A stretch of 64,000 nucleotides of DNA, from the NCBI GenBank assembly GCA_021904315.1, contig CM038919.1:2976001-3040000 (forward strand), read 5' to 3'. The notes under the pieces were generated by a model. The model saw only the letters and a program-made list of their open reading frames with translations. It ran no database searches and had not been told where the DNA came from. Source of the stretch: Sphagnum magellanicum. Taxonomy: Eukaryota > Streptophyta > Sphagnopsida > Sphagnales > Sphagnaceae. The first letter of the stretch is position 1. Every line of letters begins with the position of its first letter. The translations under genes were made by a program, and so were the position numbers. Positions 20,516 to 52,084 of the stretch are shown one piece after another.

Positions 20516-20639
20516 ATTAATGCTTTGGACCCCATCCTGCCCGACTTTTTCAGATGGAAATTTTTTCCTGCCCGGTAATTCTCTGGACCAATTCCAAAAA
20601 AGATTTCAAATTAAGATCTTCTTCTGCCCGGGATTCTCG

Positions 20640-23100: not shown

Positions 23101-26100
23101 ATGGGTCCTCCTGATATGATGACAGAGTTAACAGATATGAATGTAGAGGAGGTCAAAGGATGGGATGATGATGGTGATGCATTGTCACAACAGCCACCAA
23201 GCTCTACTCCTTCATCTTCCTTTGAGGGTAATGAGGAGGCCTCTCCTCCTTCATCTTCCTTTGAGGGTAATGAGGAGGCCTCTCCGATGGACCTTGCAAA
23301 AGCTGATTTCTTCAGATTCTGTGTTCTTACTCCGAAATCAATGACTGCTTGCTCGGCCCAAATCAAGCATCAGGTTCTTGGACCCGATTATGAAGAAATT
23401 CTTGCTATTTTTTGCATCTTGATATCCTTCACTGACAGCACCACTTGTATAGGTGGATCTCAAGAATCTGAAGCGTCTGTCTGGTCTTGCTAAACTGATC
23501 AACATGAACCTTCTTCTGTTTTTTGCAGACCCAAGCAACAATGTGCATCACTCTTGAGCATTGTAGTCTTGAGGAATTCAACCTTCCATTCCAAAGCTGG
23601 ATGTTCCAGACTCAGGTCCAAATGGAGCCGCGGTCTGGCCATAAGATCAAAGCGGACATCTTATACCAATTCACCACAGGCGATGGCAATAAATTGATAG
23701 GGTTTGTGACTACCATCTTTAATGGTATAACTGGCAAGAACTCTTCGAAGCCAAAGCACGAGAAAAGAGGCGGCATTCCTGTCCGGCAAGCAACGTTACA
23801 GTTGGACATTGTTGACCACCGAGGTGAATTGGTGGAGGGAATTCAAGATGTGCAGACATGGATGGCTCTGTTGACCAAGATGATTTTTTTTTCTGACTCA
23901 TCAAATGTTGATGCTTGTCTTGAGGAGTATCAGCATCATCATCATCACCAGCAAATGATGATGATTGCAAACAGAATAAAGGAATCAGATGTGGATCAAT
24001 TTGTGAGTTGGGCTTACAAGCTGCGGGATTGGTTACGTCAAGGCTATGCTGAAATGTCGCAGGAAGAGAACATGAACACAGCAATGCAGGGGAAGATGTG
24101 CATATTTTGTCTTGCTTTGACTGATCTCCTCAAGGCTTTTGAGATGGTTTACTGTCGGAGGGATAGGCTTGCAGATGTCTACCTTGTGCTCCTTTCATCC
24201 CTATGCGAGTATGAGGTGGAATTAGGTGCAAGCACTCCAAGCCCTTCATTTGTTGAGAAGACTCTGGCAGATGGGGTCAAGAACCTTGTGAATTGTATCT
24301 CATCTTTCTCCTTTGCATGGATCAAATGGTTAAGTGTGCTCAGGAAGTTTGAACCAACATGGCAGTTTTGTAATAGATGGAATACCATTCAGTTTGACAT
24401 TGAGACCATCTTTGAATGTCAACCAGTTGAAGATGAGTACGGGAAGGCTGTCACGCACCTTATACACAGCAGCAGCAGTGTAGAAATGTCAAACAAAAGG
24501 GTGAGGAGCCAAATCTCAAGAGTGTCTCTTGGGGCAGCCCCAACACTACCTGCCTTTTTGGTGGCTGCACGAGCGTTGGATGGGTGGATGAATAATGCAG
24601 CTGATTGGGACCCAACAAAGGAGAATGTGCAAGAAGAAGTTAGATTGTCCCAAAAAACAGCAATGGAAATGTGGTTCAATCAGCTATACAAGGGACCTAA
24701 TGGGTTGAAGAAAGCAAACAGATTGTTGAAGCATTTTGAGTTGGCTTTGTCTGTTCAATTTCAGGTCACGAAGCCCTCGGTTGCATATTTGCCACCTTTT
24801 CTGGCAACCAGGTTCCGTGAGAGTTTCATGCAGATCCTTTTGGACATTGCTTTGTCCAGACCAGAACTTCTGAAGAAATATTCTTCATATGCTGCTGGTG
24901 ATGTAAAATCTCTCTTTCAAGGTGCCATCAAACTGATTTGTGAATGTCCATACACGTTCACAATCCCACTCTTGCCGAATGAGGTCCGTTTGCTCTCAAC
25001 CCTGGCAGGGGCTGAAAGTGACGAGTTCCACCGGCTTGGGAAACTTGCACTAGTTAAAATGGCAGCAACTTTTGTGGAACTGGATCCAGGAGGCCAAAAA
25101 ACCATCGAGCAGCTCAGAAACAATGTCCTGAGGCCATGGATCCTGAAAGCCATAAACCGTGTGAAAGGATCATCACAATCTCAGAGCAGCCAAGTTTCTG
25201 CAATGGATTCCCTCAAGACCGTGGATGGATTGTTTGACTTGGGTCTCGATCCCTCGTGCCTATTGGCACATTCTTTGTCTTCTTTGGTGGTTTCGGTGAG
25301 CCAACAAAAGTCACCTAGCATGCGGCTCTTTCTCATGGATGCAGAGAAAATTGGCCAGTTACATTTACCTCTTCAAGTTCATTATCAGCAAGCTGTGGTG
25401 ACCATGATTTCTGCACAACTGCGATATGCAGAAGCACTGTCTGATGTTTATCGAATTGGTCATGAGGCTTTGGAGGGAATCTGTACACAAACTCCTCAAG
25501 GAACCTTGATCATCCAAAAGAAGTAAGTGCTCTTCTGAGTGTTGTTCTTACATTGCATTTTTTTATGATCCCATTTGGGATCAACACTTGTGGGTGTTAA
25601 GGAAGATGGCAAAATTAGACCCTTGTCTTGCACCTCTTCTAATGAAAGTTTCACTCCAATATATCTTCATGTGATCATCTTGTTGGCAGGATGCAGGAGG
25701 ACCTATGTGTAGCACTCCTGGATGCAGTTGACACAACCCATCAAATCATTCTGGATGATGCACTAGACAATGAAGCAATCAGGACGATCTCAAAGTCTGA
25801 TTTTGCAATGAGCTTGATGAAGATTGGAGACTGTCCTCCCCGAATCCAAAAGCACCGGATTTTCTCAAAAGTGAGTGAGGCATGTATGTCATTGGGGTCA
25901 TCTTTGGTCGAGGGGACCATAAGCATGCGAACCCTTAACCTGATCTCACAAATGGATAATGGTGCCACATGGCATGTGATCTTTACATCACGTGGCTTCC
26001 ATAACTTTGCTGCTGCCCTTGATGCAGCCCTCCAAGATCTTGAGGTCTATAAAAGGAGGCTCAGAGCATGTGATATTCTGGTCACAATATTTTGCTCCTT

Positions 26101-29100
26101 TTTGAGCGAGCGAGGTTTGTTGATCCAAGATTTTGAAAATTGGTGCAAGTGGCTTGCTGAAAGGAAAGAGAACTGGGGTGACTTTGCTTTGTCTAAAGTG
26201 AAATTATCAGATCATTGGCCTGATGTTGCTCATGCATCAGTCTTTGACAACTTGGATGCGATTCTTGTCTTACACCAGTCCAGGATATTCATGAATCTCT
26301 TGGAGGAGAGTGTACAAGATCTCTTGAATGTTGATGAGATATGTTGTCTCCCATCGTCAATGAGTTCACATCATCCTCACCTTGTTGAACTTGGAGAAGA
26401 GTCTTCTTCTTCTTCTTCTAGCTTATTATATCCAGGAAGCATTCACATGGTTGACGCATCACTAATTCCACGTTGCATGAAGACTTACAAACAGGAGCTG
26501 ATGCCATATGTTGGGCGAAAAGGTCTTGACAAAGTGAACATGGATAGAGTCTGTTCTTTGTGGCATGGAGTGGGACCAAGCCAAGTTGAGACTGAATTTG
26601 AGTTGGCTAGAAATCAACTTGATGTCACTGACACAAAGGGTTCCTGGCTGATGAATCTGATTCGTGGGAAAGAGCTTGACATGGTTGAGCTGATTCAAGC
26701 CTGGGTTGCCATCAAAGCCAAAGGTGAGCTAGCCAAAGCTTTGCCTAGAGTGGCTGGGATCTTCGGCTTTGAAGAAACTTGTGAGGGATATTTGAACAAA
26801 GTCGAGAAATTGATCAAGGAATGTGAAGGCGGATGTACATTGAAGGATTTCAACGAGCTTCACAAGCAAGAGGGGAAGGCAATTTTGGCCTTTGTCTCAG
26901 AGTATGAAGAGTTTGTATTGATGCGACTGGCTGAATCCGAGCCCCTTGTGATGTTCTTGAGGGAAAACTTGGATGAGGATCTGAGGCATTTGATTGATGC
27001 TATCGAGGAACACTCGGATCATGATTTTCTTCAAGAAGCAATGATTTCAGATCTTATTGACCTCCATAGTATGTACATCAGAATTTTGGGGATTTGGGAA
27101 ATCTTGGGGTTTAGGGTTTTGCTAGAAGTGAATTAAGTATTGCAATCTCTGGTTTTTGGTTAAATTGTCAATTAGACTATTTTACAATCATTGATTGTTT
27201 TTATGATTGTCTTGTAAACCTATGAGGATTTCTTCTTTTGGGGATTAGGGGTTTTGTCATTGCATCCAAATTTGTCAATCTAGACTGTCTTACAATCAGT
27301 GATTGTTTTATGATTGCCTTGTATATTATAGGATTTCTTTCTATTGGGGATTTAGGATTTTTAGGGTTTTTGTGAAAATCTTGCATCCAGATTTGGCAAA
27401 AGAAAATATGAAATGTAATTGGTTGGTTTTTGGTGAAATCTTGGATCCAAATTTTGCCAAAAGAGAGAATTTATACAACTGTTCATTTCTTTCTAACACT
27501 CTTAAACCCTCTTGGTCCCATAGTGGTTGTGCCAGGGTACTGGACTTAATGATTGATCTGGAATTTTTTTGTTTGGGGTTTGTTTCAGGGCTCTTCCGGC
27601 CTCTTTTAAAGTCAGAGACACCTTCATTCGAGCAACTACGAAAATTGATCACCAAGGAGGTAAACAATTCAGAAGCTGGTGCAAGTGAATTAGCGGTGAA
27701 GCTTCTGACTTGCAATGAGAATGTGAATATATTGAGGCAGATTCTCTCCACTGTTGCAAACCGTGGACTTAAGATGCGGGATCACATCAAACGGATACTA
27801 GACGGTGGGAAATATCATTTCACGGTCTATGATATGGCATGCCACCTCAGATTGAGCATCGGCTCTCACACCACCGCAGCCCAAAAGTCTGACAGTGACA
27901 GGGCACTGAAAGAAGAAAAGGGTGTTTATGTACTCGCAGATTTGCAAGATTTCCGGAGTCGTGCCCGGTTGGTTATGAGCTCTCATGTGATGCAAGCTAG
28001 GAGACTTGATATCCACTCATCTGGTACATTTTTTTTGGCTGCTTGTTACCAGTTTTTGTAATTTGAACAGTAGGGTCTGCTCGGTGGCTGAAGATTATGT
28101 CATTTTCTTGACCACATTATATGACATAATCTTCCGGTGATGATCATACACTCATAATAATAGTGACCAAAATGTGTCTTCTGAACATGAAAATTAGCTG
28201 AATCTACCAATCTATTCCATAACGTCATGGAATGGCCTCACCCTTGCTCATTACGTTGGGTGTGTCACCAGAATGGATGTCTGAAAGTAACAGCAAGTGT
28301 GAGATAATAAGCATTTTCTATTGGCAGACTTCTTCATTGACTGCTTTGAACTGGGTGATGTAGGTATGTCTGCAGCAGATGCAGACTCGGAAGAGGCAAC
28401 AAAAAAGTTCATTGATCAAGTCAACATTGTTGAACACCTGGTCACTTCCATTTCAGAACTTCATACCTCAGGTCACTTTCAGTTCGCGGAATATAGTAAT
28501 GTGGTCTCGGGCTTAGAGAACTTGCAAGCACTGGAAAGAGATGTTGAATGTGAGCTTCAGGATTGGTATGGTGCAGTAAAACAAGCCCGTGCAAAGCACC
28601 CATGCCTCAACTACTTCCGCTCCATGGAGCTGAGATTATTTCTTGAGGTGTTAAGGCGCAGTCCGACTGAGGCAATAATGGAACCTAAAGAGAGGACATG
28701 CTTAGAGTTGCTTGAGTGGGCTGGAATAAAGGATGGTAATCTTGCTCTTCGTAGAGCTCAAGCTATTGCCAAAACTATGCTACAGAAGCTCATTTTTCCT
28801 GATGGGAGGCACTATCACCAAGAGGTGAACAAATCTTATCTTTTGGGTTGTTTGGATGTGATTGCATTCTCACTCGAGAGTGCTTTTGTTAGGAGAACAG
28901 TGACAAATACAGTAAATCCCTCTGAGGTTGTTATGACAGAGCGAGGATTTGATGAGTTGGTTGAGTTCAGCAGGAAGACTCAAAAACGCAGCAGTGGTAG
29001 TGGTTTGATTATTCTGGCTTTGGTGGAAGATCCACAAAGTGAACTAGATGCAGTTGTAGAGTTATTTCATAGACGAGGGATTAGTCTTCGTGACATACCG

Positions 29101-29565
29101 AGAAATGTTTTACTATGTTCCATGACAACCACCTGGGAAGAAATTCATCTCTTACTGCTGCGCTGCTTCAAAGAAGATGAATCCCAAGATTCAAACTCTG
29201 GCTTCTTCTGCATTGCCTATGTGGAAAATCTCAGCTTTGATTGCCAGAGTCAGTTTCAAAGCACTCTTCAAGAGATGATCCAGGAACAAGAAGGCAACCA
29301 ACCACAGAATAATATTGTCATTCCCAACGACATTGGGGATCAGAAGAATGTGAAATTTTGTGAGAAACTGGCGTTGGTGTGCTGTTCTAAGGGCCATCCA
29401 CTTCTGGCCCTTTCACGTCATTTGCATGTCCGAGTTTGCCATATGGGTGGGGCCCACATCAACAACATCCAAAATCAGCTACCAGCAGAGTGCGGCAATA
29501 TGCGGGTTGTCACTTCCAATCTCCCTGGCCTGGGGAAGACTATGTTCATCCACAAAACTTCTCCA
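23101..29565 (+). other. RNF213-like protein, N-terminal arm (exons 1-5, residues 1-1773)
   Basis: Exon 1 encodes an acidic Ser/Pro-rich leader (residues 1-60) with a 13-residue unit PSSSFEGNEEASP repeated twice in tandem. The rest is mostly helical and corresponds in position to the N-terminal arm and linker of RNF213. The HPCLNYF segment in exon 5 recalls an equivalent LNYF segment in animal RNF213. Exon 5 ends with TSNLPGLGKT, which may be a degenerate P-loop of an inactive AAA unit. Apart from these points this part is poorly conserved, and its assignment rests on splice continuity with the AAA core. Confidence 0.65.
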
Positions 29566-32500
29566 GTATGCAATTCATTAGCACCCAACCGCATCCTTTC
29601 ACATCCCATACAAATTGATACTAACTTTTATCATTATTATTGTTATGTTTTCATAATTATAATAATAGTAATGAGAACATAATAGTAATAATATTAATGA
29701 TACAAATTGTCTTAAGTTGGTTAGCTAATCAAGGTTTGCTGTCCAACACTTTGGCATGGATGGCTAAAGTAAAAGTCAATTGTGTGCAATGTTCCCATAA
29801 TGTACCCTTTCTGAGTTTGGATAGCAGTGTTCCACACCCTTAAAGACTTTTTTCCCTTTTTGTATCGTTGCCTCATTAGGGAGGTAACATAATATGACCT
29901 TAAACCCTAATTGCCGAGTTTTAGTGTTTAGGGTTTAGGTACCTGGGTTTAGGGTTTTCTATTGTTGTCTCTGATAAACCTAATTACCTAGGTGCTAATT
30001 GGCTAATTACATCAGTGCTAGCAAAACTGGTCCCTTGAATCATGTTTATGTTCCATTAATTGGTTGATGATCACTAGTTGGGATTGGAACCATGTGAGTG
30101 ATTTAATCTTCCTTTTTGCAGGAGCTGGTTAAGACATTGTGCATACAGGGGAGTGTTTCAAGGAACACATTGATTTTGAGACTAAAACAACTGAATTTAC
30201 AGCCTGACAGCATCTTACATCTCAACATCTCGACTGTCCAAAGTTCTGAGGTGCTCAATATGCTGCTATTTGAGCTTCTGATTCTTGGGTCTCTAAAGTC
30301 AGACACTGTTGGGATTTTTCATTTGAAGACAAATCATGTATTTGTCGAGCTTGCAAATACACTCCTTGATGAGCTTGCATTGAGCCTCCTGGTTTGTCGC
30401 TGGTTCAAGAATGATATCATGATGTGGGATTTGGGAATGCTCGAAGTGAGTGATGATACCAACAGCAACACCCAAGTTGTGTGTATTTACCTCCAACAGC
30501 TGGATTCAAGGCAGCTCGAAATAAGGGATTTGATCTTTGAAGGACCCAGTCGCAATGTGAAAGCTCTTACCTCAAGCCAATGTCAAGTGCTTTTGAAGAA
30601 GCACTTTACTGATCACATGAAGGACCCAGATTCAATGACGTTTGCAATCCTTGACATGTTCATCAAGTTCTTCTCACTTCAACTGAGGAACTTAACCAAT
30701 AATGTTTTCTTCAACACCGAAAACTTGAAGTACATGAATGCAATGCCAAATATCCGATCATATCTTGTGTGCACACTGTTGGAGGTTTCCCGGGATCTCT
30801 CTTTGCGGTCTGTAAAGCCTTGGCTTCATGAGGAGCAAAAGTCAAATGGTAGGAGGAACACAGACTTGACTATTGCTGCTCGCTTTGATGGGATGCTACG
30901 GTGGTCTGATAGCAACCATGTTATGGTTTTTTTCCAAAGAGATGGACCACCTTCCATCCTCTATCGGGATGTGGACCTCGTACCAAGTTCCATGATACAA
31001 CTTTTTGCTAGCCAAAGGTTGAGATCAGAGAAGTGCGTAATGCCCAATTATTCAATGATGTCATCTGAGGAGTTATGGGCAAGTCTGTGGCCAATATTAC
31101 AGCGAGCGGCACCAACATACAAACCTGGATATGTTCTCACTCCTGACAATTTCTTGAAGATGGCACTCATTGCTCTTCGTGCTGAGGCTGGTGTTCCTGT
31201 CATAATCATGGGCGAAACTGGGTGTGGCAAAACAAGCTTGCTCAAAAATTTGGCTTTGTATTGTGGCGTTGAATTCTTCTGTGTCACCCTCCATGCAGGA
31301 ACATCAGAGAATGAAATCAGGATGTTTGTGGCAAAGGTGGAGGCTGTAGCTGCGAGGGGTCCCAAAAAGGTCAGTTTTTCATCCTCATTTGATTTGTGTG
31401 GAAAATTCACCTATCATGTAAATTGTCTGCATGGCTGAGAGGATCGTGCCTGACTGAATTTCCAGGTCTGGGCGTTCCTTGATGAGATTAATGCATGTGA
31501 CCATCTTGGACTTCTTGATGGGCTCATATGTCACCGATCAATGGACGGGGTACCACTTCATCATGAGCTTGTGCTTCTGGCTGCATGTAATCCATACCGT
31601 CTGCATGACAAGGAAAGCAATCGCATTGGTTTCTCTGCCCAAGAGCTTCTGAATCCCAGCAACACACAGCACTTCAATCTGGCGTATCGTGTGCACCCAC
31701 TACCTGAGGCGATGCTCGATTATGTGTGGGATTTTGGGTTGCTTTCTCAGGATGATGAGAAAGCATACATCTTGGCCATGGTGCAAGAAATCAAGGAGCC
31801 ACCAGTCCATCTGGGAGCCTTTACAGACCTATTGGTCCAATCGCAAGACTTCTTAAGACAATGCCATGGGGAAGCGAGTGTGAGCTTGCGGGATGTAAGT
31901 CGGTGTATCTCATTATATTGTTGGTTTTTGGAGAACCTTAAGTTGCGGCCTTTGTCAACCCAAAAAATTGTTGCCATTAGAGCAACAATCTTGGCATTTT
32001 CACACTGTTATCATTCCCGTCTAGCAACAGAGCATGAGCGACAACAATACAGAGATTTGTTTGCTGCTGTTGTTCGGATTAGCAATCCCCATATATACAA
32101 GTGAGAATTAAGCATACCCTAAGCTTCTATTGCACAGATTTGAACCTATGGGTGGTAACCATCAAAGAATTGCCAAAAGAAACACCCCAGTGCTCCTTGT
32201 ATACCCTATTGTTGCTTTTTGTCATTTGTCATTTTTTTTTCTCTTTTGGAACTTGTAGCAGGTATCCTCACTATTGCACTCTTCACTAGCAAATTTCCCT
32301 TGTATTGAGCAGATTTTATATGACCTTTAACCTTTGAAATTGTTCATTGTTTCTCATCTGTTTTTTTTTTTTTTGTGTGGATAAACTGATTCTCCAGGAA
32401 TTTTGACGGCACCCAATATGAGAAAATGCTTCGGGATGAACAAATGGACTTACTGAACCGCATGGAAATTCCAGCTGGAATTGCCAAGAACAAAGCTTTG

Positions 32501-35500
32501 CTGGAGAATGTGTTTGTGACATTAGTTTGCATGTTGAACCTCATCCCTGTCTTTGTGGTTGGAAAACCTGGCTCCGGGAAAACCCTGGCCCTGCAGCTCA
32601 TTTACAGGTAATGGTACTCAGCACTACCCATTTATTTCTTTGGATTCAGCAGTTTAGGGTTTCTGATGTACAAGAGTTTTTTTTTTTTTTTGGTTTTCAA
32701 AGTTTATTTCTTTGGATTCAAGGGTTGAGGGTTTCTGATGTACAAAAGGGTTTTTTTAATTTGCAAAGTTTTCAGCAAAGTATTTTTATTACTCCTGTAT
32801 GGGTGGGTGACAAGAGACAACAATGGTAGATTTCATGTCTCCATTACTACTAGATCTTTAATTCAGCTTGATTGATCGAAGTGTCTAATTCAACCAATTT
32901 TTTTTAATGGCTGCAGTAACTTAAGAGGCTTGGAATCACGAGATGTTTATTTACAAAAGTTACCACGAATGTACATGCTCTCATACCAGGGCTCCCAGAG
33001 CTCAACATCCGAAGGCATTCTCAAGGTACAAAAAAATCTGAACTTAATTCCATCATACCTCCCGCATGTGTTGCTGTCATGGGTTTGTTCTCTTGTGGTT
33101 GGTTGGTTGGTTTGATGATGCTCCCAAGAAACATACTTGCTTCTTAAATCTCCAATGATTGCCCCCAAACTTCATGAAACAAAGAGATTTAATCAAAAAA
33201 TAGATTGATTTTTGTCTAACAAATGACATCAGTTAATTTTCTGTAAGTACCAGGTAAGCTCAGAAGTTTGATTATGTTTATCTTAAGCTAGTTTGTAAAG
33301 GTTTTCAGGAATTTTGGGTTGTTCTAAGTATGCCTTATCTGTTTGAGCTTCTATAAATTTTCTCCTCAATGGGCACAAAACATTTATATATATCAGTCAC
33401 TAGGGGGTTGGGATTGTTGTTGGGTGGTTGATCTAGTGAGCTAATGACAGCCAGGAGAAAATTGGTGTGTGTTGTTAGGTGTTTGAGAAAGCATATCGCT
33501 GTAAAAGGGACAATCAAGATCGGGATGTTTTGGTTGTGGTGGTGCTTGATGAAGTTGGGCTTGCTGAAGTATCCAGCCACAATCCCCTCAAGGTGCAATT
33601 TTATGCAAAGATAAAATCACCCACACCTCTTTCTTGTATTGATAGGAGGAAGACTTTGTGTAATACATGGAAATTATGTAAAATGGCATTATTTTGCAAT
33701 CAAAACATTATGGTCTGCTGAAGTGGCAGAAGATTATGTCATTTTCTTGACCATGTTATATGACATAAGCTTCTAGTGATGATGATCATACACATATACT
33801 AATGACCAAGCCCTCTGTTGAACATGAATTAATATTATTGTTATTTTTTGAATTGTTCAATCTGCCACCCCAGACCTTAATGTCATGGAATGGTTTTGCC
33901 CTTGACCATTATGATGGGTGTGTTGCTTTAGCTCGGCACCCTAACAGGCTTGCTTGGCACCTTATCCAACATAATGGGAAAGGGCAAAACCATTCCATAG
34001 TATGCAATTTCCCCTAGAACCTGGCTTCACAAAGAAAGACGTTTCACCAAACTTTTATTGACAATCACAGGTCTTGCATGCGCTTCTGGAACCGGATGGC
34101 ACACAACAAGTGGCAGTGGTGGGGATAAGTAACTGGTCACTTGATGCAGCTAAAATGAACCGGGCAATCCATCTGTCACAGCCAGACCCATCGGAGGATG
34201 ACCTGTTTTTGACAAGTCGTGCCATACTTGAAAGCTATGGGAACAACAACAGCAGCTCAGGCAGTGGTGGCAGCCATCAGAGCAGCACTGTCTTGCACAA
34301 GGAGCAGGAGCTACAGAGTCTTGCAAGGGCTTATTATAACTACAATTGTGTTCAATCACAACCCAACTTCCATGGTCTTCGTGACTTTTACTCCTTGATC
34401 AAGGCCCTGCGGATCACAAGACACAACAACAACAATGCTCCATTGCGGCAACGGTTGTCACAGGGATTGGGGATGGCTGTGTGGCGGAATTTTGGTGGCT
34501 CGCCCAATGACATTGACACATTTTCTCAAATTTTGAAGGAAAACCTGGGGCACGAGTCACTGTTGCAAAAGCCCCCATCAGTTGTCGACCTTGTCAAAGA
34601 GAATTTCCATGACAAAGATGCCCGGCATTTGATGCTCATTACAACAGTATGTCCTCTCTTATTACCTCTACTGTCATGGAGGAAATAACCCAATGTTCTT
34701 TAACCAGTGTTATCGGGCAGTCCTTTGATTTTTGCTATAACCTCTGGTTTCAGGATTTTTAAAAAAAAATCAAAATCTGCAAGTCTGAATTGGATTTGAG
34801 GTCAAAGAACCAACCCCAAATTCTGGCTTTTTAAAGAAAAATCCAGAATAATAGAGTTATCCTTAAAGTAACCCTGTCTTCACCCTGTCTTTGGGCCTCC
34901 TTTCACCCCCTATCCCTGTGTTCAGTGGTATCCGCAAAGTAAAGACATTTTAATAAATCTCAGTATGAAATGCTGCAACTCAGCATTTAATGCACAAGGC
35001 TTGAGACTAATTATCATAGTTGTACAGTTAGGAGCAGTGAAAATATATGTAGCGGCAGTGGAGGCACTCAGGAAAAAGGAAAGACGGGATGAAACTCAAT
35101 TTTACCACCAAAATTGATGGTTTTCTGAGTTTCATCCCCCGTTGAATGCTAATGTACTTTTTTGCAGGTTTTTTTTGAATCCCACCCTGTATATGACCAA
35201 AGTCAGGGTTCTGGTGCTGTGTTTTTCTTACTTTACAGATATGACTCTAATATAACCACTAGTTCTGGGTTTTTGAAATTTTTCTTAGAACCAGCAGTTC
35301 AGGGTAAGTTCTTTGACTGGTTCTTTGATTTTCTTGAGAACCATGATATATTCCAGTTCAAAATTGGTTCTTTGAACTGCCCCAACACTGGAAATAACTT
35401 GCACTCTTGGCATATGGATTTTCACATCAATAAATTTGCTGTTGCCATTGATTGACACAGAAAAACTGAGCTTCCCATATGTGTTTGCTATATATCCAAC

Positions 35501-38500
35501 AACAGCAACTGTGTAACTAGTTCCCTAATCATCACAAACAAAACTCTCGTATTCCATGCTTTTGCAAAATATCCCAATTTAGCTAACTGGCTTGGGTGGT
35601 GGGGAATTTTTGTTCAACCCTTTTTAACAGGGTGACTCTGCAATCGGTATCTTGGAACACATGTCAGAGTTCCAAGAGAATGTTGTTGTTATTCATGGAA
35701 GCAAGTACAAGGATGACCATTCTGATGACTATTCTTATTTGATGCTGAGCAACATCATCCTGCACATGGAGGCTGGCAGGTAAATTAAATTCTGTAGCTT
35801 CTGGAAATGGAGATACTAGTGCTCTGAATGACCCAAAGATTATAGTAACAAACACCCCCTTGTGTAAAATCCAGTATTTCCATAAAAGCTGCATTATTGG
35901 AAAGGAAGAGACTATGACCATGAAAGGTCACATCTTGGGTGTAAGAACCTTTGATTTCTTGAATGTTTTGCTCCAGTGTTGGGCAGGCATTTGATTTTTG
36001 CTAGTAACTACTGGTTCTGGTTTTAAACCTTTGTGTCCTGAAGGTGCATATTACTGTGGGGAGTGGAACAACTTTGGTCATCGCTATATGACATGTTGAA
36101 TCAGCATTACACAACAGTGGCAGGCCGACGGAACTGTCGCATAGCTATGGGTGCTTACAGCAACCCGATGTGCTTTGTCCATGACAACTTCCGGTGCATT
36201 GTTGTGGTGGACTTTTGCCAGATTCCACGCCTTGACCCCCCTTTCCTGAACCGTTTCGAGAAACAAGTGTTGACGTATGAGAGCATTCTGACTGAGCTCC
36301 AAAAGAAGGCTGTCAAGACTCTCGAGTCATGGGTGGAGAAAATGGCATGCCTTTCCCCCATTGATGATGCTGAGCCTGGTCAGAGTACCACCACCCCATT
36401 CCGCAAGTGTGATTTATTTGCAGGCTACCATGACGACACTTTACCATCACTTGTGTTGCACCATATGAGCACTCAAGAAGTTGAATCTTCTGCTTCTTCT
36501 GTACCTATGTGGCTTCTTGATAGGTATCTTCTTTGACTTCAAAACCCAACTTTCACAGGAAATCAGATATGCTTAGGCTAACTAAATTGATGGACTTTTA
36601 AACCTCCGGGAACAAGTAGTATTTCTTCTGCCAACAGTATCCACAATAGAACTCAGAACTAGTACATAAGTGAATCTCGTTAATTGGACAAGTCGCACAA
36701 GTCCTGCTATAAATAGTTTCATAGGGTACTACAAACCAGTGTTGGGTGGGTATTTGATTTTGTTAATAGCCGACAGTTTTTTAAAGAAAAGGTGAGAATC
36801 AGAGAACCACCACTGCTGGTTCAGGTTTTTTGAAAAGAAATTAGAATCAGAGTTTCAGTTATTTCAAAAGCCTCATTATAGAACTGGTAAAGAACCACCA
36901 GCGGTTTTATAGGCAGCTATCTGTTATTGTTGTTTTTTCAAATTTTTGGAGAACTGTGGTTATTTATTAGAACACAAAATTCTTTGACTGCAGTTATGAA
37001 CCCTAAGAACTGCCCCGATAATTGCCAGGGGTCTGTTCCTGGTTTCTGATAACCACCCTGTTAACACTGGTGCAAACCAGCTCTGACAATTAAACTTGAG
37101 CAAGTTTGATATCAAGTGTTTCTCCTGGTTAAATAGATTGGACAGTCTCATGGTCCTCCAGTGAAGAAATGCAGCAAATCCATAAGCTGATGGGACTGTC
37201 TATTGTATTTAAGTACCAATGAAGTTCACTAGTCTTGAAATAGTTTTGGTGGTGATGGGTTTATGTGGGGAAAAAGGTGTAAGGAGGATTTATTGCGCAC
37301 AGCCTATGTGGATGGCATGGTGCGAGCGTCTCAATCACAACAGTGCCAGCGAGAAGTTGCAGACCTCAGGAAATGGACCCAGGTCTTCTTTGGCCAATGG
37401 CATGATAAACTGTGCCTTCACGACTTCCTTGATGCTCATGTAAGACAGTCATTATTTATCAATTTGCCTACTTTACTTCTGTACAAAGTAACTGATCCAT
37501 ATTATGTCTTTTGCTGGCCATTTGGAAATCACAGCCAGAGATGGGTTCAGACCAATGTTGGTCTGGTATTGACTTTTGAACATACCAGCCTGCTTGGTCC
37601 TGGTATAGTGGTGTTGTTGGTTATGTTGCCTCATCTCATACTAGACTGGTAGGGGTCCTTGCTACCAATGTTTGTACTGTTGTTGATAACAAGTGCAACC
37701 CTATATACTAGACCAACACTGGTTGTTCAGACCTAGGAGCTGATTTTTCTTGTGTCAACCACTTGAGATGAACAGCCCCACTTGCGCCTATTTTGAATTG
37801 AACCCTTAATGTTGCTTGGTTTTTGTTTCATCAGCTGCAGAATGATGATACTTTGGAGAAAGATTTGAAGGTGGTCATTACAACTCGATCGAATATCCAC
37901 ACACCTGTCAAATACTTTCTGCATGGCCTCCAAAACGTCAATAATGTAAAGCCTTTTTTTTTGACACAAAGCAATCCAACACGTCCTAATTATTCCAGAG
38001 ATAATTAATTGTCCAATGGTTTTTTTTGAAGAGTCTTTTTTTCTTAGCTTGTTATATATGCTGAAGATTGTTTCCCAATTACAGAGGCAAAATTCTACAA
38101 TTTGAAGTTGAATACCTGGATTCTAGTGTGAAGTTTAAAAATCATGTCTGGTTGGTTCTTGTGCATTATTACTTATTAGGTGCAAATTGAGAAGTTGGGT
38201 GAGTTCTCTTCGGAAAGACAACTTCAGCTCCAGATTCAGCAATTCTGGTTTGGAGTGTCAAATTTACTTATTCTTCAGGCGGATGCACTGTTGGACAAAG
38301 AGCACATACCACTTGCAAAGTTTTGGGTTGACAAGATCAACACAGAGTCAACACTGGCTGCTCAGACTAGTAGTTCTATTATGGGGTCAGGTTCTTTTAT
38401 GAAGAAGAAGAAGAAGAAGAAGAATGTTGTGCTCATCATTCACACTCACCGTGATGTTGTTCAAAGTTGGTCCGGATTCACATTTCTGAGTGGTTGGCAG

Positions 38501-41500
38501 CAATTGACATTGGACCAGCTTCAACGGGAAGAGACTGATTTAAGGTATAAATCAATTGCTTACCAAGGGATGTTAGGGTTGATTTGCTCAAAATGATTTT
38601 TTTTCCCCCCAAAGTCAACCCAAAATCAGCTCAAAGAAGCATGTTTTCACAAGATTTATTCACCATGTACCCAATAAGTCCATGCATTTGAGCTCATGAT
38701 AATTCTAAGTTTATAGATTAGAAGATGGAGAAAAGGTTCAGTTAAGAATAGTTCAAATCTAACCATGTCTGTTGGGATGCACCCACCTGTGTTTTTTTTT
38801 CTTGCAGAGTGTTTTTGGATCATACGATTGTGGAACTAGTAGAGTTGGAGAGGATTCCGCTTTTTGAAATGATGGTCAAAGTGCTCACATGGAGTTTTCT
38901 ATGCATAAAGTACCCATGTGGACTAAATGCAGCAAAATATAGCCAAGAAGCGGTGCAACGAATTTGTGCAGACAAACAACTGTGGGGATGCTTTAAGCAG
39001 TGTGCTGTTACATGGCTTACTGAGAACTCAAATCCTTCATGGCAAGCTTTGGTTGCATGCAATCGAGGCCGATTATCGCTCTCATCAAGCCTCCAAGATG
39101 CCTTCTTGCACTACATTGAGGAAGAGCTCCGAGAGCCAATTGCAAGGTTGGTTTATATGTTGGAGAAAGCGTCTGCACTTGCATCTTATTTCACATTGGA
39201 TGAGGAAAGGCAACATTTGTGTCAAAAGGCTCTTGAAAGCTCGGCCTGTATTTTTAAGCTTGAGAATGTGCCGGCTCCGAGGCACCCAGAAGGTTACCAT
39301 ATCAAAGCTCCACTTCGCCTTTCACTTCCGTTTTCATCTATCTTTGCCCAGCACATTGATGATGGTTTTCAGGAACTTTACTCTATGGAGATCTCAAATG
39401 GTCTGAAAGCTGTGGAGATGATGGCAGCAGTATCAGACACAAGAGTGGGTACGGGAATCAGAACATCCCAGCCCAGTGAAGAGATCTTCTGTATGCAGCA
39501 TTTGGACAAAAAGAAAAAGATTGTGGAAGAAGAAGATCATATGACTGCAAGAGGGAGCAGGATTGCCAACATCCAAACCAGGATTCGCACTGACATATCT
39601 AGTGCACTTCGGGCTTCATTGGGCTCGATTGTTGATTACATTGAGTCAAATATTGAAGAGTATATTGTGGATTTCTCAAAGATTTATGCAGTGTACAAAT
39701 CTGATGAGCGAAAGGAGAGTGAAGCAAGGCCATTTGAGTGGGTGTTGAGGGGGAATTTGTGTGTGACAACCTTGTCAGCCGCTGACTTGCACTTGCTCCT
39801 ATGGGAAGAGGGTGAGAAGATATCAGCACAGGCTCTGTTAGCTGAATCATGTTTATCGGAATTTGATCTCAAAGCAGAATTGCAATGTTTGAAAGACAGA
39901 AAGTTCCCGATAATGACAACAGCCGAGTTTGATGCACATCTGGTATCATGTTGTTGTTTGACAATTCTGCCAACAAGAGAAACCGTCAGTGACAACCTCA
40001 GGTTTGGTGCATGGTTTCGAGACTTGAATCTCCTCATCAAACTTGCATCACCTCTCGGACGTTCTACACATTGGACAACTTTAGTTATGCTTGAAGTTCT
40101 TCGAGATATGGCATGTTTGGTCATGCCTCCAGTTTCTTGGAGCAATGTGATTCTTGTGGACCTTGCACAGTGGTTCCAGAATCGCAGGTATGTGGTGGGC
40201 ACATACTACTTCAGCCCGGGAGAACTCCTTGAGGCAGTTTTGGGCTTCATCCCAGAGGTGAACACATTGGCAGAAGAAGAAGAAGAAGAAGGGGTCACTA
40301 GTAGTCGAGAATGTTGGTTTCGGTTTCTGGCATTGTTTTTGGAGAAGATCCTGGACTCTGATGACTTGACTGCCAAAGACATAAATACAATTTCCACTTT
40401 TCTGTTCCAGCTCAGCAATCCGACATGTGCGATGAAAGGTGTGATGTTAAAGCTCCTTCACATGACCCAATTACATATGTCACAACAACCCATCCGTAAT
40501 GCTCATTGTCCACCATGTATGCATGTCTTTTTTGACCAAAAAGACACAGACTTTTGGATCATCAACAAGACAACATCATTTGAGAGTGAAGACCATAAAA
40601 TCTTTGTGCTTCTTTGTGACTCGGTATCCAATATGATTCAACCTTCAGTCTCAAGAATAGTTCGACAAGGCTCTTACACGGCAGAATGGGCATATAAGGA
40701 CTTCGAGCGGTACTTGCTTCTAGCTATAGAGGAGCTCAAGAGTGCTGATTGTCCTTTGTCACTTCGCACTGTTGGCTCATTAGCACTTCTCCGGAGTACA
40801 TTGCATGTGATTGCAGATGAGCTGATCACTGTCCATAAAGAAGCTGTGCATTCTTCACGCCAAATTCAGGTACCTCAAGTTGTTGTCACTTTGGCCAAGG
40901 GACTTCACAGCAGCTCACCAAAAGTTGCGGCTCTCAAGCAGTACTTGTTTAAAGTGCTGCATACATGTCATGGTCTTACTGTGCAAGAAATCAACATTTT
41001 AGTCAACAATTGCAAAGGCAAAGGCAATAGAGGTGGACTGGATTGGTACACATCAATCCTGGACTGGGATCTCATGCAATTAGGGGCTGACAATCCCCTT
41101 GGCTTTGACCCTTTTTGGTCCTCATCTCAAGAATTTCAGAAGGCAGGAGAAAGGATTTGGTCCCTAGCAAGAAGTGCCCAGAAGGAAAGCAAGGCAGCAA
41201 GAAGATCAATTGAAAATGCTACAGAGGGTGAGCAGAATGCTTTTACAGCTACAGTTGCATCTAGAATCTTCCTTGTTCAAGCTGCTCGTAAGCTCACCTC
41301 ACGAGAACAAGACATAGCCATGTCACTCAACAATATGAATCTGCTGCGCATGTGGCATCCAAAATGGAGAAAGGCGATCTTGTGTTTTGCTGATCTGAGA
41401 TCAAGCTCCAGCACAACAAATACCATCACACAGCAGCAGATGGGTCTTCGCCCAAGCATGCCACCACAGGAGTTGTGGTTTAAATCACTCTCTGCTCATG

Positions 41501-44500
41501 TTCTTTTGGTCGTGACATCTTTACCAAACACCTCTCCATTACAGGTATTTCGAGAGAGTCTTTCTCCATTACTACTGATAGACCATCCAGTGGCAAAGAT
41601 TGTGTTTTTTATAAAAACCATGTATGGTATTGTGATCATGGGTTGTTCCCATCTACTGACGGTTAGCTTGTCAATTTTCTCCAATGAATTACTTGGCAAT
41701 CCAGCAATCTGGAAGTGACTTTTTTAGGTCTACAGAATAAACCAGTGTTGGTTTGGTATCGACTTTTGAACATACCAGCTGGTCCTGGTATTGGGTACTT
41801 TTTAAGATTTTCATAACCAGTCTCAGGTCATGCCAATCTGGTCAGTTCTTTGACACCAGGACCAATATCGGTCTTTATACCAGGGTTCTAGCATGGTACC
41901 TGCCCAACTCTGGTGGAAACCTGAAGAAGGGTCATTTATCATATTGAAAACATAACAATGTCATTTCATGATCTTCTACCTCATTTCAGTTTCTCCCATA
42001 TACTGAGATTACAGTATGTGTCTGTGGTGTTGCAGGGTTATCTCTCCCATGATCCTGTGCACTTGAACAGTGCATTCGTTTTGGCTGCCCCTGACAGCTC
42101 TTTAGCTGCGTTTCGCACAATTGTTGAAGGAGGTCGAAAGCTTCTTGAGTACCAATGCCCATGCGGTTTCAAGTACTTTATTGGAGAATGTGGGAAACCA
42201 ATGCAATCAGGGACATGCCCTAATTGTCATCACATGATCGGTGGCCAAAATCATACTGCTGCTGATGGAAATGTGATTACACCCAACACACAAATTCAAA
42301 GTGGTAAGTATATATGCAAGTTATGGTCCAAAGATTGAAGGTGGTTATCACATTGCTACATGCAAAATCTTTGATTTCATGTTAAAATTGCATTTTCCCA
42401 AAAACTGTGTAGTTCCAGTTGTGTTGCAGACAATTGCTGACTTTGTATGTACAGTTTAGGGTTTCTTGTTAATAATTGATCTCATTGCCCCCCCCAAACC
42501 TCAATCTGCTGGAATTTTTATGTTGTAATTCTTTTCATATGTTGCCACAGGTTATATCATTGACAATGTTGCTCGTTCGGACACCTTCTACACAGTCCGC
42601 CACCTTGACCATAAATCCTTTCGAGCACTTCGTGTTGTGATGCATTATTGTCTATTGGTTGGACTATATCTTGGGAACAGTAGTGGGGAGAGTCTAGCAA
42701 GGTCAATGGGTCTCTCTGCCAACAAGTCAGAAGTTATTGAGGAGCTCAAGAAGATCATCCAGGAAGACTTGGAGAAATTGGACCACCTTCTTTCATCAAA
42801 TCGTGAGGTGACAGTCAAGTACATGCATTCATTGATTTCCTCATTGCGGTTGATGAAAAATTCCAATATATTGACAACCACATTGGCACGCGACCATTGG
42901 GAGGTGGAATTTCTCCGACTTTTTGATATGGTTAATTTCGAAAGTGCCCATCTTGCAGCAGCCATATATCTACAGGAGCAACAGGCAACTGATCGCTTTG
43001 CGGAGGTGCTTGAGGAGCGGGGGCAGCCATTATTTCCAGCAGCAATTGAGGCACTTTTGAGAATAACCATCCAACCATCCCTTGAAAATTTCAAAGTGGT
43101 TTATATGCAGGACTCGCAAAAAGTTCAAGCACAACCCTTGATACGTGTCTTTTTCAATCATGAAAAGACTCTAGGCGATTTACAGTGTCTCATGGTGTTG
43201 TTGCGTTTCTCCAATGCTGTTCATGAAAAACTCTCTTTCAGAATCACACGGCCTGATGCCACATCAAAAACAATGAGAAACTTTCTGGGAGATAACAGGT
43301 ACAACTTTTCACCAAATTGTGATTACTGTAAACCCTAAACCCTATTGCTGCAACTGAAACAAATCTTGTTACATGAAATAAAGCAAACACTGTGATGGCC
43401 AGTTTCATTCAAGTTCTCTGTTATCCTTGGTTGTTAAGTTCTGAGAATTTGCCTGGCAAGCTAAGTAAATGGGTATGTATGTGTCCATGCAGGGAGCTAG
43501 AGAGACTATTTCACAACTTTGCAGAGGCATGGAACAGCATTTGTGGGAAAGTTAAAGGATATGGGTGCCGGGAATTTCAAATCCCAGTCATGGATATTGA
43601 AACTTCCCTTGCACTCTGCCTTGTGGAGCCTCGTGACCAAGGCATCTACATCACTGCCATTCTTGACTACCTTGCCAACCTTCAAAATTCTTTCATCGAA
43701 GATGTGCTTGCATTGGGGACAGGGGCAAACCCAGAAACTCCAGACTCTGAATCAACCACCAGAGAATTTGCTCGTCCACCGACTGTTCATCTCCAGAGCT
43801 GCAAGGTTGGTGAAGGTCCTTTTTTTCCTTTTTCTTTTAAAGATTATATATATAATAAATATTTTTAAAATTATTTTATTTTATTTTATTTTATTTTATT
43901 GCTTTTTCTTATTCAAAGTTTTGGAAATGTATAGACCGGTGTTGGGTGGTTATCAGAAACAATAAACGGACCCCCGGTGGCTATCAGAGCAGTTCTTGGG
44001 GTTGATGACCATGGTTCTCCAGAAGAAAATCAAAGAACCAGTTCTCATTCATAGATGAGGTTCTCAAAAAAATTGGAAAAAATCAAATAACTGCCCAGTT
44101 TATTACCAGTTGTTTCATGAAAACTGCTGGTTCTTTGAGGTTTTTGAAATAACTGGAACTGGCAGTTCTCTAATTCTGAAATGTTAAAAACGGGAACTGA
44201 TGGTTATTAACAAAATCAACTACCGGCACAACACAGGTATAAGCACATCACATTTGTCTGTCTGTAGTCCTACTCATAAACAGTGATTGATGGGTTCATC
44301 TCTTGCTTGCAGGTTGGAGAGGTGATACACTATGATCGGAAATGGGTGGAAGATATGGTGTGCAACGTAGCTATGGCAGATCTCCGTTACTCTCATGGCC
44401 TTGAAGCCCACTATGACACTGTCACAATTAACCAACAATTTTCCCTTCATCTCGTGCAAGGAAAAGCTCACCTTGAAGCTGTATGTTTTCACTCTCCAGA

Positions 44501-46759
44501 TGCTCATTTACATTTGAAACATGTTATTGACAAAATCCACCATTGTGGGTGGGAGGCATGATCACCTATTCCTTAGAAAACATGTAGAGTTTTCTTGAGC
44601 AATTCATGTGACATGGAATGGTCAAGCCCTGTGCTGGGTAAGGTGCCAAGTGAGCTTGTTAGGGTGAGCCTGGCAACACACCCAACATAATGGGCACAGG
44701 CGAGACCATTCCATGATGTTAAGGTCTGGAAGGAAGATTCTACATTTTTAGAAAACAAAAATGTTCAACAGAGATTTTGGTCACTATTACAAGCATATGA
44801 CCATCACCAGCAGATTATACCATATAATGGGTTCAAGAAAATGACATAATCTGCCACTCCATACCTTCTTAATGTGTGCAGTTCCCTTATATTTAGACAT
44901 TGATAGAAATGTTGCCTAATTTTGTTAGAATTTTGGTGCTGACAGAATTGGCTGGAATTCCCATACAAGCATGAAGCATTCCACCATCATGCAACGATTC
45001 TCTCTGATGTGACGGCAGCCATTCATCAGGAACCATTAAGACCTGAGACTTTGAAAACCATTCGAGATGAGATTGACATTGGAGGTGCTGGGGTGGGTCA
45101 CTTTCTTGGCATTCTTGATCTTTGTCTTGGGTTTCTTCGTCGAACAGGCGGCAAACCTTCAGAGTCCCTGGGGAGCTATTGCGAACGCTGGCTGGGTAAA
45201 AAGGAGGCAATTTTAATCACCGAAAAATCTGTCTTTGACAAGATTCAGCTTTGTCATATCGTAAGCCTATATGAAGGACTGGAGGACCATGCAAGCACCT
45301 GTGCCAGCAGCATTGTCAGCCCTCGTTACAGGTGATATGATCTTTTTCTTATGATAGTTTTTTCCAAACATAATAAACCTTGGTTGTGTTGCAAAAGGTT
45401 ATTTCAGATTTTCCTCTTGGAATTAGGAAAAAGACCCATGATTCAAACATCTAGATAGAATGCAAAAGTAATCTATATTTTTTTTAAAAAAAATTGCACT
45501 TATAATAGAGTATTCTGTAAAGTAACCCTGTCTTCACCCTGTCTTTGGGCCTCCTTTCACCCCCTGTCCCCTCTTTCAGTGGTATCTGCAAAGTAAAGAT
45601 ATTTTATTAAATCTCAGTATGAAATGCTGAAACTCAGCATTTAATGCACGAGGTCCAAGACTAATCATACAGTTAGCAGAAGTGAAAAGATATGTAGCAG
45701 ACGAGGAGGCACTCAGGAAAAAGGAAAGACAGAATGAAACTCACTTTAGCACAAAAATTGATGGTTTTTTGAGTTTCATCCCTTGTTGAATGCTAATGTA
45801 CTTTTTAGCAGATTTTTTTTGAATCTCACCCTGTGTATGACCAAACTCAGGGTTCCAGTGCTGTGTTTTTCTTACTTTACAGATATAACTCCAATAGATT
45901 CAATCAAATTAGTATTTAAATCAGAAAATTTCTGGAGTCCTTGAGCTTTTCTACAGTTTTGAGTATAAGTGTAGAATTAAATTGCTATTTATCTGGTCTG
46001 GATTCTGCAGTCCTAGCAAGTCTAGAAATTTTGATTTACTTTGTCTGGTGCCATTATTTATTGTTGGATTTATTGTAACAAAATTATTTCTCTTGTTGGT
46101 CTTTGTTTTGGTCCAGGAGTCCTTTGTCACAGAACTTGGTGCGGGAAGTTTGTGAGGCGATCAAATCAGATGATGGATGGACAGACAAGGCTGAAACAGA
46201 TGAAAAGTTGCCTGCATCAATCTTTCAAAATGTGCTACAAAGATTTATGTTCCGCTACCTGGGTGCTGAACATTTGAGGCCTAATGTGGCACTTGAACTT
46301 TACCTCACAGATCCAAGGTTGGTACGGTGGCCTAACAACATGGTGGATGAAAGCCTGTTGGATGATGTGTTTCCGAAAAACTTGCTACTTGAACATTCAT
46401 ATGCGACATATATGCTTCTTTCTCAGGTACTTTTGTCTCTCTTTTTTGTGTGCCAAAATTTTTAGGGTTTTTTTCTACTTGCCAGGAAAGCTATTTTAGG
46501 TAATCATGATTAGCAGATGTCTGTTGGTTGCCTAACAATGGCTTGAACCAACCATTGTTAGTCAAATCTTCCAACTTGCTCTTCACTTTGTTAAGACAGA
46601 AAAAAAAAAAAAAAAAAACTGAGTTTAGGGTCTAATCCCGAGGATCTGAAATTTTCAATTGACTCCTGTTTTGGGAAACAGATGTGTGTGGGAGCAGATT
46701 GGAAGAGGGTTGGTCTTGCGGAGGGTTGGCTAGTTGCTGAACATCGCACAACTAATTGA
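23101..46759 (+). CDS. RNF213/mysterin-like giant AAA+ ATPase with RZ-type ubiquitin-ligase zinc finger
   Basis: Inferred coding exons: 23101-23373, 23529-25522, 25690-27068, 27589-28023, 28328-29565, 30122-31369, 31466-32100, 32398-32607, 32917-33025, 33479-33592, 34071-34646, 35631-35779, 36044-36523, 37277-37439, 37835-37945, 38180-38544, 38808-41544, 42036-42303, 42551-43298, 43493-43805, 44313-44480, 44946-45331, 46117-46426, 46682-46759. All have GT-AG borders, phases agree throughout, and the sum is 14,487 nt (4,828 aa; human RNF213 is about 5,200). It has Walker A GETGCGKT and GKPGSGKT, Walker B FLDEIN and VLDEVG, the ISNW...AKMNR sensor segment typical of RNF213, and an RZ finger. 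In animals RNF213 is a cytosolic giant ubiquitin ligase with a dynein-like core. The ATG is chosen because a TGA lies in frame just upstream. Least certain are exon 14's acceptor, exon 24 and any extra leader exon. The plant function is unknown. Confidence 0.85.
28080..28292. repeat. Composite inverted-repeat element A, copy 1 (intron 4, partial)
   Basis: The left module (GGCTGAAGATTATGTCATTT onward) is followed by the right module starting CATGGAATGGCCTCACCC. The far end of the right module is missing. It lies wholly inside the intron before exon 5, ending about 35 bases upstream of the acceptor. Confidence 0.7.
30122..34646 (+). other. RNF213-like protein, catalytic AAA+ modules (exons 6-11, residues 1774-2737)
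   Basis: Two ATPase modules follow one another. The first has Walker A GETGCGKT at residues 2137-2144 and Walker B VWAFLDEIN with D2195/E2196. The second has Walker A GKPGSGKT at 2456-2463, Walker B VVVVLDEVG with D2531/E2532, and the sensor/arginine segment GISNWSLDAAKMNR at about 2563-2576. These match the two active AAA units of RNF213 (AAA3 and AAA4), whose ATP binding controls the ligase. All expected residues are present, so ATPase activity is likely. Confidence 0.9.
33718..34010. repeat. Composite inverted-repeat element A, copy 2 (intron 10, most complete)
   Basis: The left module runs from GTGGCAGAAGATTATGTC to AATCTGCCACCCCAGACC (about 33,722-33,886). The right module starts with ATGGAATGGTTTTGCCC and ends with its reverse complement GGGCAAAACCATTCCAT (about 33,890-33,999). 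Each module has its own terminal inverted repeats and neither codes for protein, which is typical of non-autonomous DNA elements. Confidence 0.85.
34850..35252. repeat. Inverted-repeat element C, about 400 bp (intron 11)
   Basis: It starts AATAGAGTTATCCTTAAAGT and ends CTTTACAGATATGACTCTAA. The reverse complement of the end (TTAGAGTCATATCTGTAAAG) resembles the start, so the termini are imperfect inverted repeats. The interior is non-coding. Confidence 0.8.
36735..37071. repeat. Inverted-repeat element B, long form (intron 13)
   Basis: The element starts ACCAGTGTTGGGTGGGTATT and ends CACCCTGTTAACACTGGT, giving imperfect terminal inverted repeats. The interior is non-coding, with repeated AGAACCA and GGTTCT motifs. 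It fills much of the intron between exons 13 and 14. Confidence 0.75.
37551..37724. repeat. Inverted-repeat element B, 174-bp form (intron 14)
   Basis: It starts ACCAATGTTGGTCTGGTATT and ends CCAACACTGGT. Its first half closely matches the copy at 41,741, with a shared CGACTTTTGAACATACCAGC-like stretch. Confidence 0.8.
38808..41544 (+). other. RNF213-like protein, E3-shell helical region (exon 17, residues 3160-4072)
   Basis: This 2.7-kb exon is the longest in the gene. It aligns by position with the region after the AAA ring of RNF213, where the animal protein carries its RING finger. Reading the whole exon I find no RING pattern (C-x2-C ... C-x-H ... C-x2-C ... C-x2-C). The only paired cysteines are CPPC near residue 3725 and a CCC run near 3543. 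The segment LPFSSIFAQHIDDGF recalls the RNF213 MPFSWLLKDLLDSFW segment that precedes the RING. Confidence 0.65.
41741..41914. repeat. Inverted-repeat element B, 174-bp form (intron 17)
   Basis: It starts ACCAGTGTTGGTTTGGTATC and ends TGCCCAACTCTGGT. It has the same length as the copy at 37,551. It lies in the intron just after exon 17. Confidence 0.8.
42036..42303 (+). other. RNF213-like protein, RZ-type zinc finger (exon 18)
   Basis: The exon encodes YQCPCGFKYFIGECGKPM followed by CPNCHHMIGGQNH, the RZ finger found in RNF213 and ZNFX1. Cysteines sit at residues 4113, 4115, 4124, 4133 and 4136, with His 4145. Spacing agrees with the animal finger as I recall it (C-x3-H-x15-C-x2-C, plus a central Cys). 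The histidine in the usual CPNGH start is replaced by Phe 4117, while an extra Cys 4115 could supply the ligand. In RNF213 this finger is needed for non-canonical ubiquitin transfer, including to bacterial lipopolysaccharide. Confidence 0.88.
43935..44238. repeat. Inverted-repeat element B, long form (intron 20)
   Basis: It starts ACCGGTGTTGGGTGGTTATC and ends GGCACAACACAGGT, with an interior rich in AGAACCA and GGTTCT like the copy in intron 13. Shorter pieces of the same family begin at about 34,703 (intron 11) and 35,973 (intron 12), and one ends near 48,733 in the 3' flank. Confidence 0.7.
44605..44880. repeat. Composite inverted-repeat element A, copy 3 (intron 21, reverse orientation)
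   Basis: Here the GGAATGG module comes first (about 44,613-44,715, ending ACCATTCCATGA) and the other module follows, ending AATCTGCCACTCCATACC. The order is inverted relative to copies 1 and 2, as expected if the two modules move as one unit. Confidence 0.8.
45503..45896. repeat. Inverted-repeat element C, about 394 bp (intron 22)
   Basis: It is nearly the same as 34,850-35,252 along its whole length, with scattered differences and small indels. It has the same orientation. Shared landmarks include CCCTGTCTTTGGGCCTCCTT and ATGAAATGCTG. Confidence 0.85.
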
Positions 46760-49083: not shown

Positions 49084-49345
49084 TACGGAATGGTCAAGCT
49101 CTTGCCCATTATATCAGGTAAGGTGTGAGCAAGCCCATCGGGAGCTAGGTGAGACACCCAATATAATGGGCAAAAGGTGAGTTCATTCCATGACATTAAT
49201 GTCTAGGGTGGCAGATCATGCCATTTTCTTGATCACATTACATGACATAATCTTCCAATGATAATCACATTAGTGATGAAAATGTGTATATTGAACATGA
49301 ATTTCGTGTTAAATCATTGATTTTGCCACTCCAGACCTTAATGAG
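49084..49345. repeat. Composite inverted-repeat element A, copy 4 (3' flank, reverse orientation)
   Basis: The GGAATGG module spans about 49,086-49,190 and is followed at once by the second module, which starts TCTAGGGTGGCAGATCATG and ends TTGCCACTCCAGACCTTAAT. The module order is the same as in copy 3. Confidence 0.8.
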
Positions 49346-51912: not shown

Positions 51913-52084
51913 ACCATATACTATGATTATAATACGTATAGATGAAAGTTGGATACAGACGGTATGTATGGGTTTTCGCTGCTGTCATATACGAGTACAT
52001 ACGTCTTCATACGGATAAGGTTACAGACCATGCTCCAGAATATATTGATTAATTTTACCTCGCATTTTAGCAACAGCCAGATGG

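Follow-up and report, generated by a model that had tools for sequence, protein, structure and literature searches.

RNF213 (mysterin) is tied to moyamoya disease, and in vertebrate cells it coats invading microbes. Like midasin (Rea1), RNF213-type proteins carry six AAA units in one chain. RNF213 combines a RING with an RZ finger, a pairing for which no explanation is known in the field. The protein is described, in the available part of a cryo-EM paper, as conserved across all vertebrates (PMC7311170). According to published work, the RZ finger of the mouse protein contains a catalytic Cys4462 and His4483 and the zinc ligands Cys4451, His4455, Cys4471 and Cys4474, and each zinc-ligand mutant is dead; the human mutant H4509A, which corresponds to mouse His4455, is also dead (PMC11549300, available part). 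The mammalian RING is reported to be dispensable for auto- and LPS ubiquitylation and, according to PMC11549300, for bacterial ubiquitylation, with a partial loss on the Toxoplasma vacuole.

In the present study we examined a stretch of 64,000 nucleotides from the moss Sphagnum magellanicum (hereafter, the window), together with the genome to which it belongs (438,994,042 bases in 31 contigs). We assign the gene described below to the RNF213 family as a true plant representative, and consider our overall reading of it, a single giant chain composed of an N-terminal arm, an AAA ring and an E3 module that would work through the RZ finger in the way proposed below, to be probable (about 0.7). No report of a plant RNF213 was found in the literature searched (titles and openings of abstracts of freely accessible papers), and automatic annotations of such moss proteins may exist. 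What is new here is an RNF213 family member that has no detectable RING and an altered RZ zinc site.

On the plus strand, starting at position 23101, a run of long open exons was joined by a spliced-frame search into one frame. The real strand scored 1380.5, versus 88.9 for the reverse strand of this stretch and 126-147 for three base shuffles, a contrast that is partly circular because the finder was trained on the RNF213-type gene itself. Two other contigs, designated C2 and C11, carry further copies (C13 being the contig of the window). When retrained on the C11 paralog, the finder proposed 28 exons in the window and recovered 13 of the 23 exons of our model identically; in the other 10 the boundaries are shifted or, in one case, the exon is split, and four exons were additional. 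The final spliced model, corrected using the C2 and C11 paralogs, extends from 23101 to 46465 (+) and comprises 23 exons and 4,790 codons (Table 1). The earlier note had given a protein of 4,828 residues encoded by 24 exons, with the stop at 46759; its single reading frame stands, whereas its counts have been replaced and the stop at 46465 is now preferred.

The 5' start and the 3' end are the least certain parts of the gene, the latter being the weakest part of the model. The top-scoring end of the finder is at 47227, with 46759 scoring 3.5 units below it; the C11-trained finder selects 46759, and at the C2 locus, too, the finder spliced past the stop that corresponds to 46465. The stop at 46465 is preferred because the C11 model ends in the same exon and C2 shares this in-frame stop, and an end at 46759 is possible. 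The ATG at 23101 has a counterpart at the same position in C2, where the finder took a later ATG.

Table 1. Exons and associated features of the RNF213-type gene (window coordinates, unless C2 is named)
Feature	Position	Strand	Description
Duplicated block, whole gene inside	20639..48835 (~28 kb) = C2 26283717-26313185		
Exon 1	23101..23373	+	start codon 23101
Exon 2	23529..25522	+	N-terminal region, no recognisable domain
Exon 3	25690..27068	+	no recognisable domain
Exon 4	27589..28023	+	
Exon 5	28328..29565	+	AAA1 region (label by position); AAA2 P-loop SNLPGLGKT at end, within 29506-29565
Exon 6	30122..31369	+	AAA2 and AAA3 start; Walker A GETGCGKT 31211-31234
Exon 7	31466..32100	+	AAA3 Walker B AFLDEIN 31472-31492; AACNPYR 31580-31600, which we take to be the AAA3 sensor
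Exon 8	32398..32607	+	AAA4 Walker A GKPGSGKT 32561-32584
Exon 9	32917..33025	+	AAA4
Exon 10	33479..33592	+	AAA4 Walker B VVLDEVGLAE 33539-33568
Exon 11	34071..34646	+	ISNWSLDAAKMNR 34125-34163
Exon 12	35631..35779	+	past AAA4; putative AAA5
Exon 13	36044..36523	+	LNRFEK 36246-36263; putative AAA5
Exon 14	37277..37439	+	weak acceptor AAG in C13 and C2; intron position matches C11
Exon 15	37835..37870	+	short, uncertain; left intron has no C11 partner
Exon 16	38180..38544	+	right intron has no C11 partner
Exon 17	38808..41544	+	place of RNF213 E3 back/core; no RING pattern
Exon 18	42036..42303	+	RZ finger 42156-42254
RZ catalytic codons (exon 18)	Cys 42189-42191, His 42252-42254	+	alignment to mouse
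Exon 19	42551..43298	+	after RZ finger; E3 shell by position
Exon 20	43493..43805	+	
Exon 21	44313..44480	+	
Exon 22	44946..45331	+	CTD start
Exon 23	46117..46465	+	CTD end; preferred stop 46463-46465

A MITE-like short repeat occurs in both orientations in the introns and downstream of the gene (28084-28147, 33723-33786, 44785-44852 and 49205-49268), and a dispersed repeat is present in introns 11 (34828-35252) and 22 (45482-45896), with an inverted copy near the end of the window (63526-63588). The window also contains pieces of a Ty3/gypsy-like LTR element (107-5541, +). At 1463-1804 they include a DNA methylase domain of the C5 cytosine type (PF00145, E 1.3e-9), and at 5101-5541 a PHD finger (PF00628, E 3.1e-13). 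Gypsy elements bearing a methylase are known from the charophyte Klebsormidium (PMC5890265, available part); the terms Sphagnum, Physcomitrella and PHD are absent from the main text of that paper. On the minus strand there is a Helitron-type helicase-like domain (PF14214, E 2.4e-56, 10786-12708), and more long frames of that strand occur at 9196-10855 and 12841-13197. A tRNA-Ile (AAT) gene is located at 52082-52158 (+).

The family assignment was assessed by comparing parts of the protein with the PDB. A query of the C-terminal 2,679 residues, taken from an early model that included two short stretches dropped later and missed most of exon 21, retrieved 25 sequences at E<=10, of which RNF213 occupied ranks 1 to 9 (E 5.9e-134 to 8.5e-130); the best midasin match (3.5e-8) was to a P-loop stretch alone, and dynein was absent from these matches. 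The matches to RNF213 form two stretches: the first begins at AAA3 (residues 2432-3349 of the human chain, 8S24), and the second extends between the RZ finger and the CTD. The latter part, used alone, again gave RNF213 as ranks 1 to 9, here of 14, with no midasin match. A single alignment to RNF213, weak in places, covers this segment, which includes the E3 shell; the CTD profile found RNF213 in nine of its 10 matches (E 3e-4 to 9.6e-4), covering the first ~100 CTD residues, and the last 114 residues of the RZ-to-CTD query, among which the E2 contact would lie by position, gave no alignment to RNF213. Towards the N-terminus, all nine matches of the exon 5 profile are RNF213 (E 4.6e-4 to 2.5e-3). 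The AAA1-AAA2 region aligns collinearly with human RNF213, P-loop on P-loop, in four of four matches with a marginal E of 0.085-0.1. The claim of the earlier note that the gene belongs to the RNF213 family is thus upheld, the AAA core being nearest to RNF213 and the RZ finger and the start of the CTD matching as well.

Like mammalian RNF213 (e.g., PDB 8S24, 6TAX and 7OIK), the moss protein displays a comparable length and order of parts, the catalytic residues of AAA3 and AAA4, the AAA2 P-loop (in a marginal alignment), the RZ Cys/His pair, three of the four RZ zinc ligands and the start of the CTD. Unlike the mammalian protein, it yielded no RING pattern, has Phe or Tyr in place of the zinc ligand His4455 and a Cys two positions upstream of that site, and contains two exons that could not be aligned, namely exon 2 and exon 17, the latter in the place of the E3 back and core. 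RNF213 was found with neither the exon 2 profile nor the exon 17 profile in the PDB, and a Pfam scan of exons 2 and 3 revealed no domain, CBM20 included. All 15 PDB matches of the exon 17 profile are TALE-repeat proteins, with a best E of 0.0031. ZNFX1, which combines an RZ finger with an RNA helicase, is similar to the moss protein in the RZ finger, but the matched core of the latter is an AAA ring of the RNF213 type. Among prokaryotic and viral sequences, 54 and 5 pattern matches to the AAA4 core were obtained, respectively, none of which was confirmed.

Three RNF213-type copies occur in the genome, on contigs of 20.0, 23.2 and 36.3 Mb. Genome-wide searches with the AAA4 core (at least 12 exon matches) and with the Pfam RZ model (at least three matches) gave matches that all lie within these three loci, both counts being lower bounds. 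The C2 copy belongs to the duplicated block of Table 1, pieces of which are 95.7, 96.5 and 96.9% identical between C13 and C2, the terminal 1.7 kb being 87.5% identical. On C2 the block is flanked by an exact direct repeat of 25 bases (26283640-26283664, ~50 bases to its left, and 26313202-26313226, ~15 bases to its right), which is absent from the window; this suggests that C2 is the inserted copy. When the C13 exons were mapped onto C2, all 22 introns proved to be GT-AG, with no stop before the end. The C11 copy is an old paralog, 44.9% identical to C13 over 4,443 aligned codons, and shares with it 18 of the 22 intron positions and phases, within three columns; these figures and the dN/dS values below derive from a 4,770-codon model that preceded the addition of 20 codons to exon 5. 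The C11 model was built with coding statistics from C13, without homology, and its first short exons are doubtful. All three copies are apparently intact.

Examination of the AAA core shows that the Walker A Lys and Walker B Glu of both AAA3 and AAA4 are retained in the three copies, an observation on residues and not on activity. The mouse and human numbering of these residues follows PMC12075652 (available part), and that of human K2426, E2488 and K2775 was verified against the RNF213 chain of the PDB match. The AAA2 P-loop, SNLPG(L/M)GKT, aligns with that of human AAA2 at an E of just 0.085-0.1. We therefore propose, from these motifs, that AAA3 and AAA4 would act as ATPases and that AAA2 may retain a nucleotide site, within a dynein-like AAA ring. 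The features that the earlier note described are present: two AAA+ modules, recognisable here by the motifs of AAA3 and AAA4, an RZ finger and the ISNW...AKMNR segment.

The RZ finger is recognised by Pfam PF20173 with E=4e-18 and 65.2 bits, compared with a cut-off of 27 bits. Its catalytic Cys and His, placed by spacing in an alignment to mouse, are conserved in all three copies, as are the three zinc cysteines. The position of mouse His4455 is occupied by Phe in C13 and C2 and by Tyr in C11, such that none of the copies conforms to the mammalian C-x-x-x-H ... C-x-x-C zinc pattern; each, however, possesses a Cys at mouse position 4453, two residues ahead of the lost His. We infer from this spacing a ligand swap, whereby zinc would be held by C-x-C and C-x-x-C, replacing the mammalian C-x-x-x-H and C-x-x-C. 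With Phe or Tyr at the place of an essential zinc-ligand His, the activity would therefore depend on the nearby Cys taking over. An AF2 model of the RZ exon (mean pLDDT 50.2) comprises one helix and two hairpins; none of its 120 fold matches at E<=10 (50 listed) reached E<=0.001, and the zinc-site proposal consequently stands without backing from the model. The His4455 change is taken as a ligand variant rather than as grounds for exclusion from RNF213.

A general pattern and a looser half pattern, applied without a positive control, detected no RING when all six frames of each of the three loci were scanned, introns as well as exons. The exon 17 cysteines common to the three copies are too scattered for a RING, and an AF2 model of this exon (three sequences, mean pLDDT 38.8) was not used. 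Because the RING is dispensable in mammals, its absence is likewise treated as a variant and not as exclusion from the family.

Most likely, by analogy with the mouse enzyme, the protein would function as an ATP-gated RZ-cysteine E3 that operates without a RING. ATP bound at AAA3 and AAA4 would activate the E3 module, and an E2 would dock at the CTD and pass its ubiquitin to the RZ Cys, both steps being modelled on the mouse enzyme. The RZ Cys would then hand the ubiquitin to a substrate, aided by the RZ His. In the absence of a RING, the RZ finger would represent the sole recognisable catalytic centre of the E3 module.

It is also conceivable, although we consider it unlikely, that the protein belongs to the family but has lost all or most of its E3 activity, the AAA ring being functional and the RZ finger a structural or binding remnant. 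H4509A abolishes the human activity (PMC11549300, available part) and all four zinc ligands are required in the mouse, and the pattern of selection could be read in the same manner. Of the coding changes between C13 and C2, 161 are synonymous and 205 nonsynonymous (dN 0.0186, dS 0.0538, ratio 0.35), indicative of purifying selection (Fisher p=9e-22). By part, where some values rest on few changes, dN/dS is lowest in AAA4 (0.07), the most constrained part, followed by the next part (0.15), the N-terminal region (0.26) and the stalk part and CTD (0.37-0.38), and is highest in exon 17 (0.58), AAA3 (0.62), AAA1-2 (0.72) and the RZ exon (0.75), the last four values being not far below 1. Between C13 and C11, for which dS is saturated and dN is 0.51, AAA4 is 71.5% identical versus 39.3% for the RZ exon. 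Low constraint, however, is not peculiar to the E3 part, since AAA3 of the ring is also at 0.62. Moreover, although much of the RZ exon has changed, both old paralogs retain the catalytic pair and the three remaining zinc ligands, the Cys two residues ahead of the lost His is invariant in the three copies, and the Pfam score lies well above its cut-off. We thus retain the reading of an RZ-cysteine ligase as the preferred one.

The family is studied in vertebrates, and our limited literature search produced no plant report; hence, a contaminant, or an animal gene transferred recently into a plant assembly, could be imagined. A search for the light-harvesting family gave 48 matches on 17 of the 31 contigs, C2, C11 and C13 included, from which the genome is that of a green plant, as the earlier note had claimed. 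All three contigs bearing the gene are megabases in length and contain such matches, 55% of the residues aligned between C13 and C11 are not the same, and the copies depart from the animal protein in their zinc site and in having no detectable RING. An animal origin of this kind is accordingly very unlikely.

We find it similarly improbable that the locus is a pseudogene, or two neighbouring genes taken as one, even though exon 15 and both gene ends are uncertain. In C13 and C2 the 23 exons contain no stop before the end, and the six exons that differ in length between them do so by multiples of three; exon lengths were used as the in-frame evidence because gaps in the protein alignment are whole codons by construction. 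As for separate genes, which the earlier note had named as a possible refutation, they are unlikely because 18 of the 22 introns match those of a paralog of 44.9% identity and purifying selection acts on the frame as joined (dN/dS 0.35). Finally, a midasin- or dynein-type AAA giant, the other refutation it had named, can practically be discounted: the exon 6 profile alone ranks midasin (2.5e-13) ahead of RNF213 (4.6e-11), but this exon covers just the first part of AAA3, whereas the C-terminal 2,679 residues place RNF213 first (6e-134 vs 3.5e-8), and midasin, while matching in P-loop stretches, is far weaker overall and leaves the RZ-to-CTD part unmatched.

We would tentatively suggest, as a possibility still on the doubtful side, that RNF213 is no animal invention. 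The original protein may have been a RING-free, ATP-gated RZ-cysteine ligase that predated the split between plants and animals; the RING of the animal proteins would have come later, and mosses would have kept a version with a C-x-C zinc site, in a small gene family that is still duplicating. A plant lineage in which the ATPase residues persist together with the catalytic pair of the RZ finger, with no detectable RING, constitutes a natural test of the RZ finger as the core enzyme, and its altered zinc site predicts a ligand swap amenable to mutational analysis. A role of the plant protein in immunity is possible but conjectural. Mosses are generally amenable to gene knock-out, and a role of RNF213 outside animal immunity is therefore open to testing.
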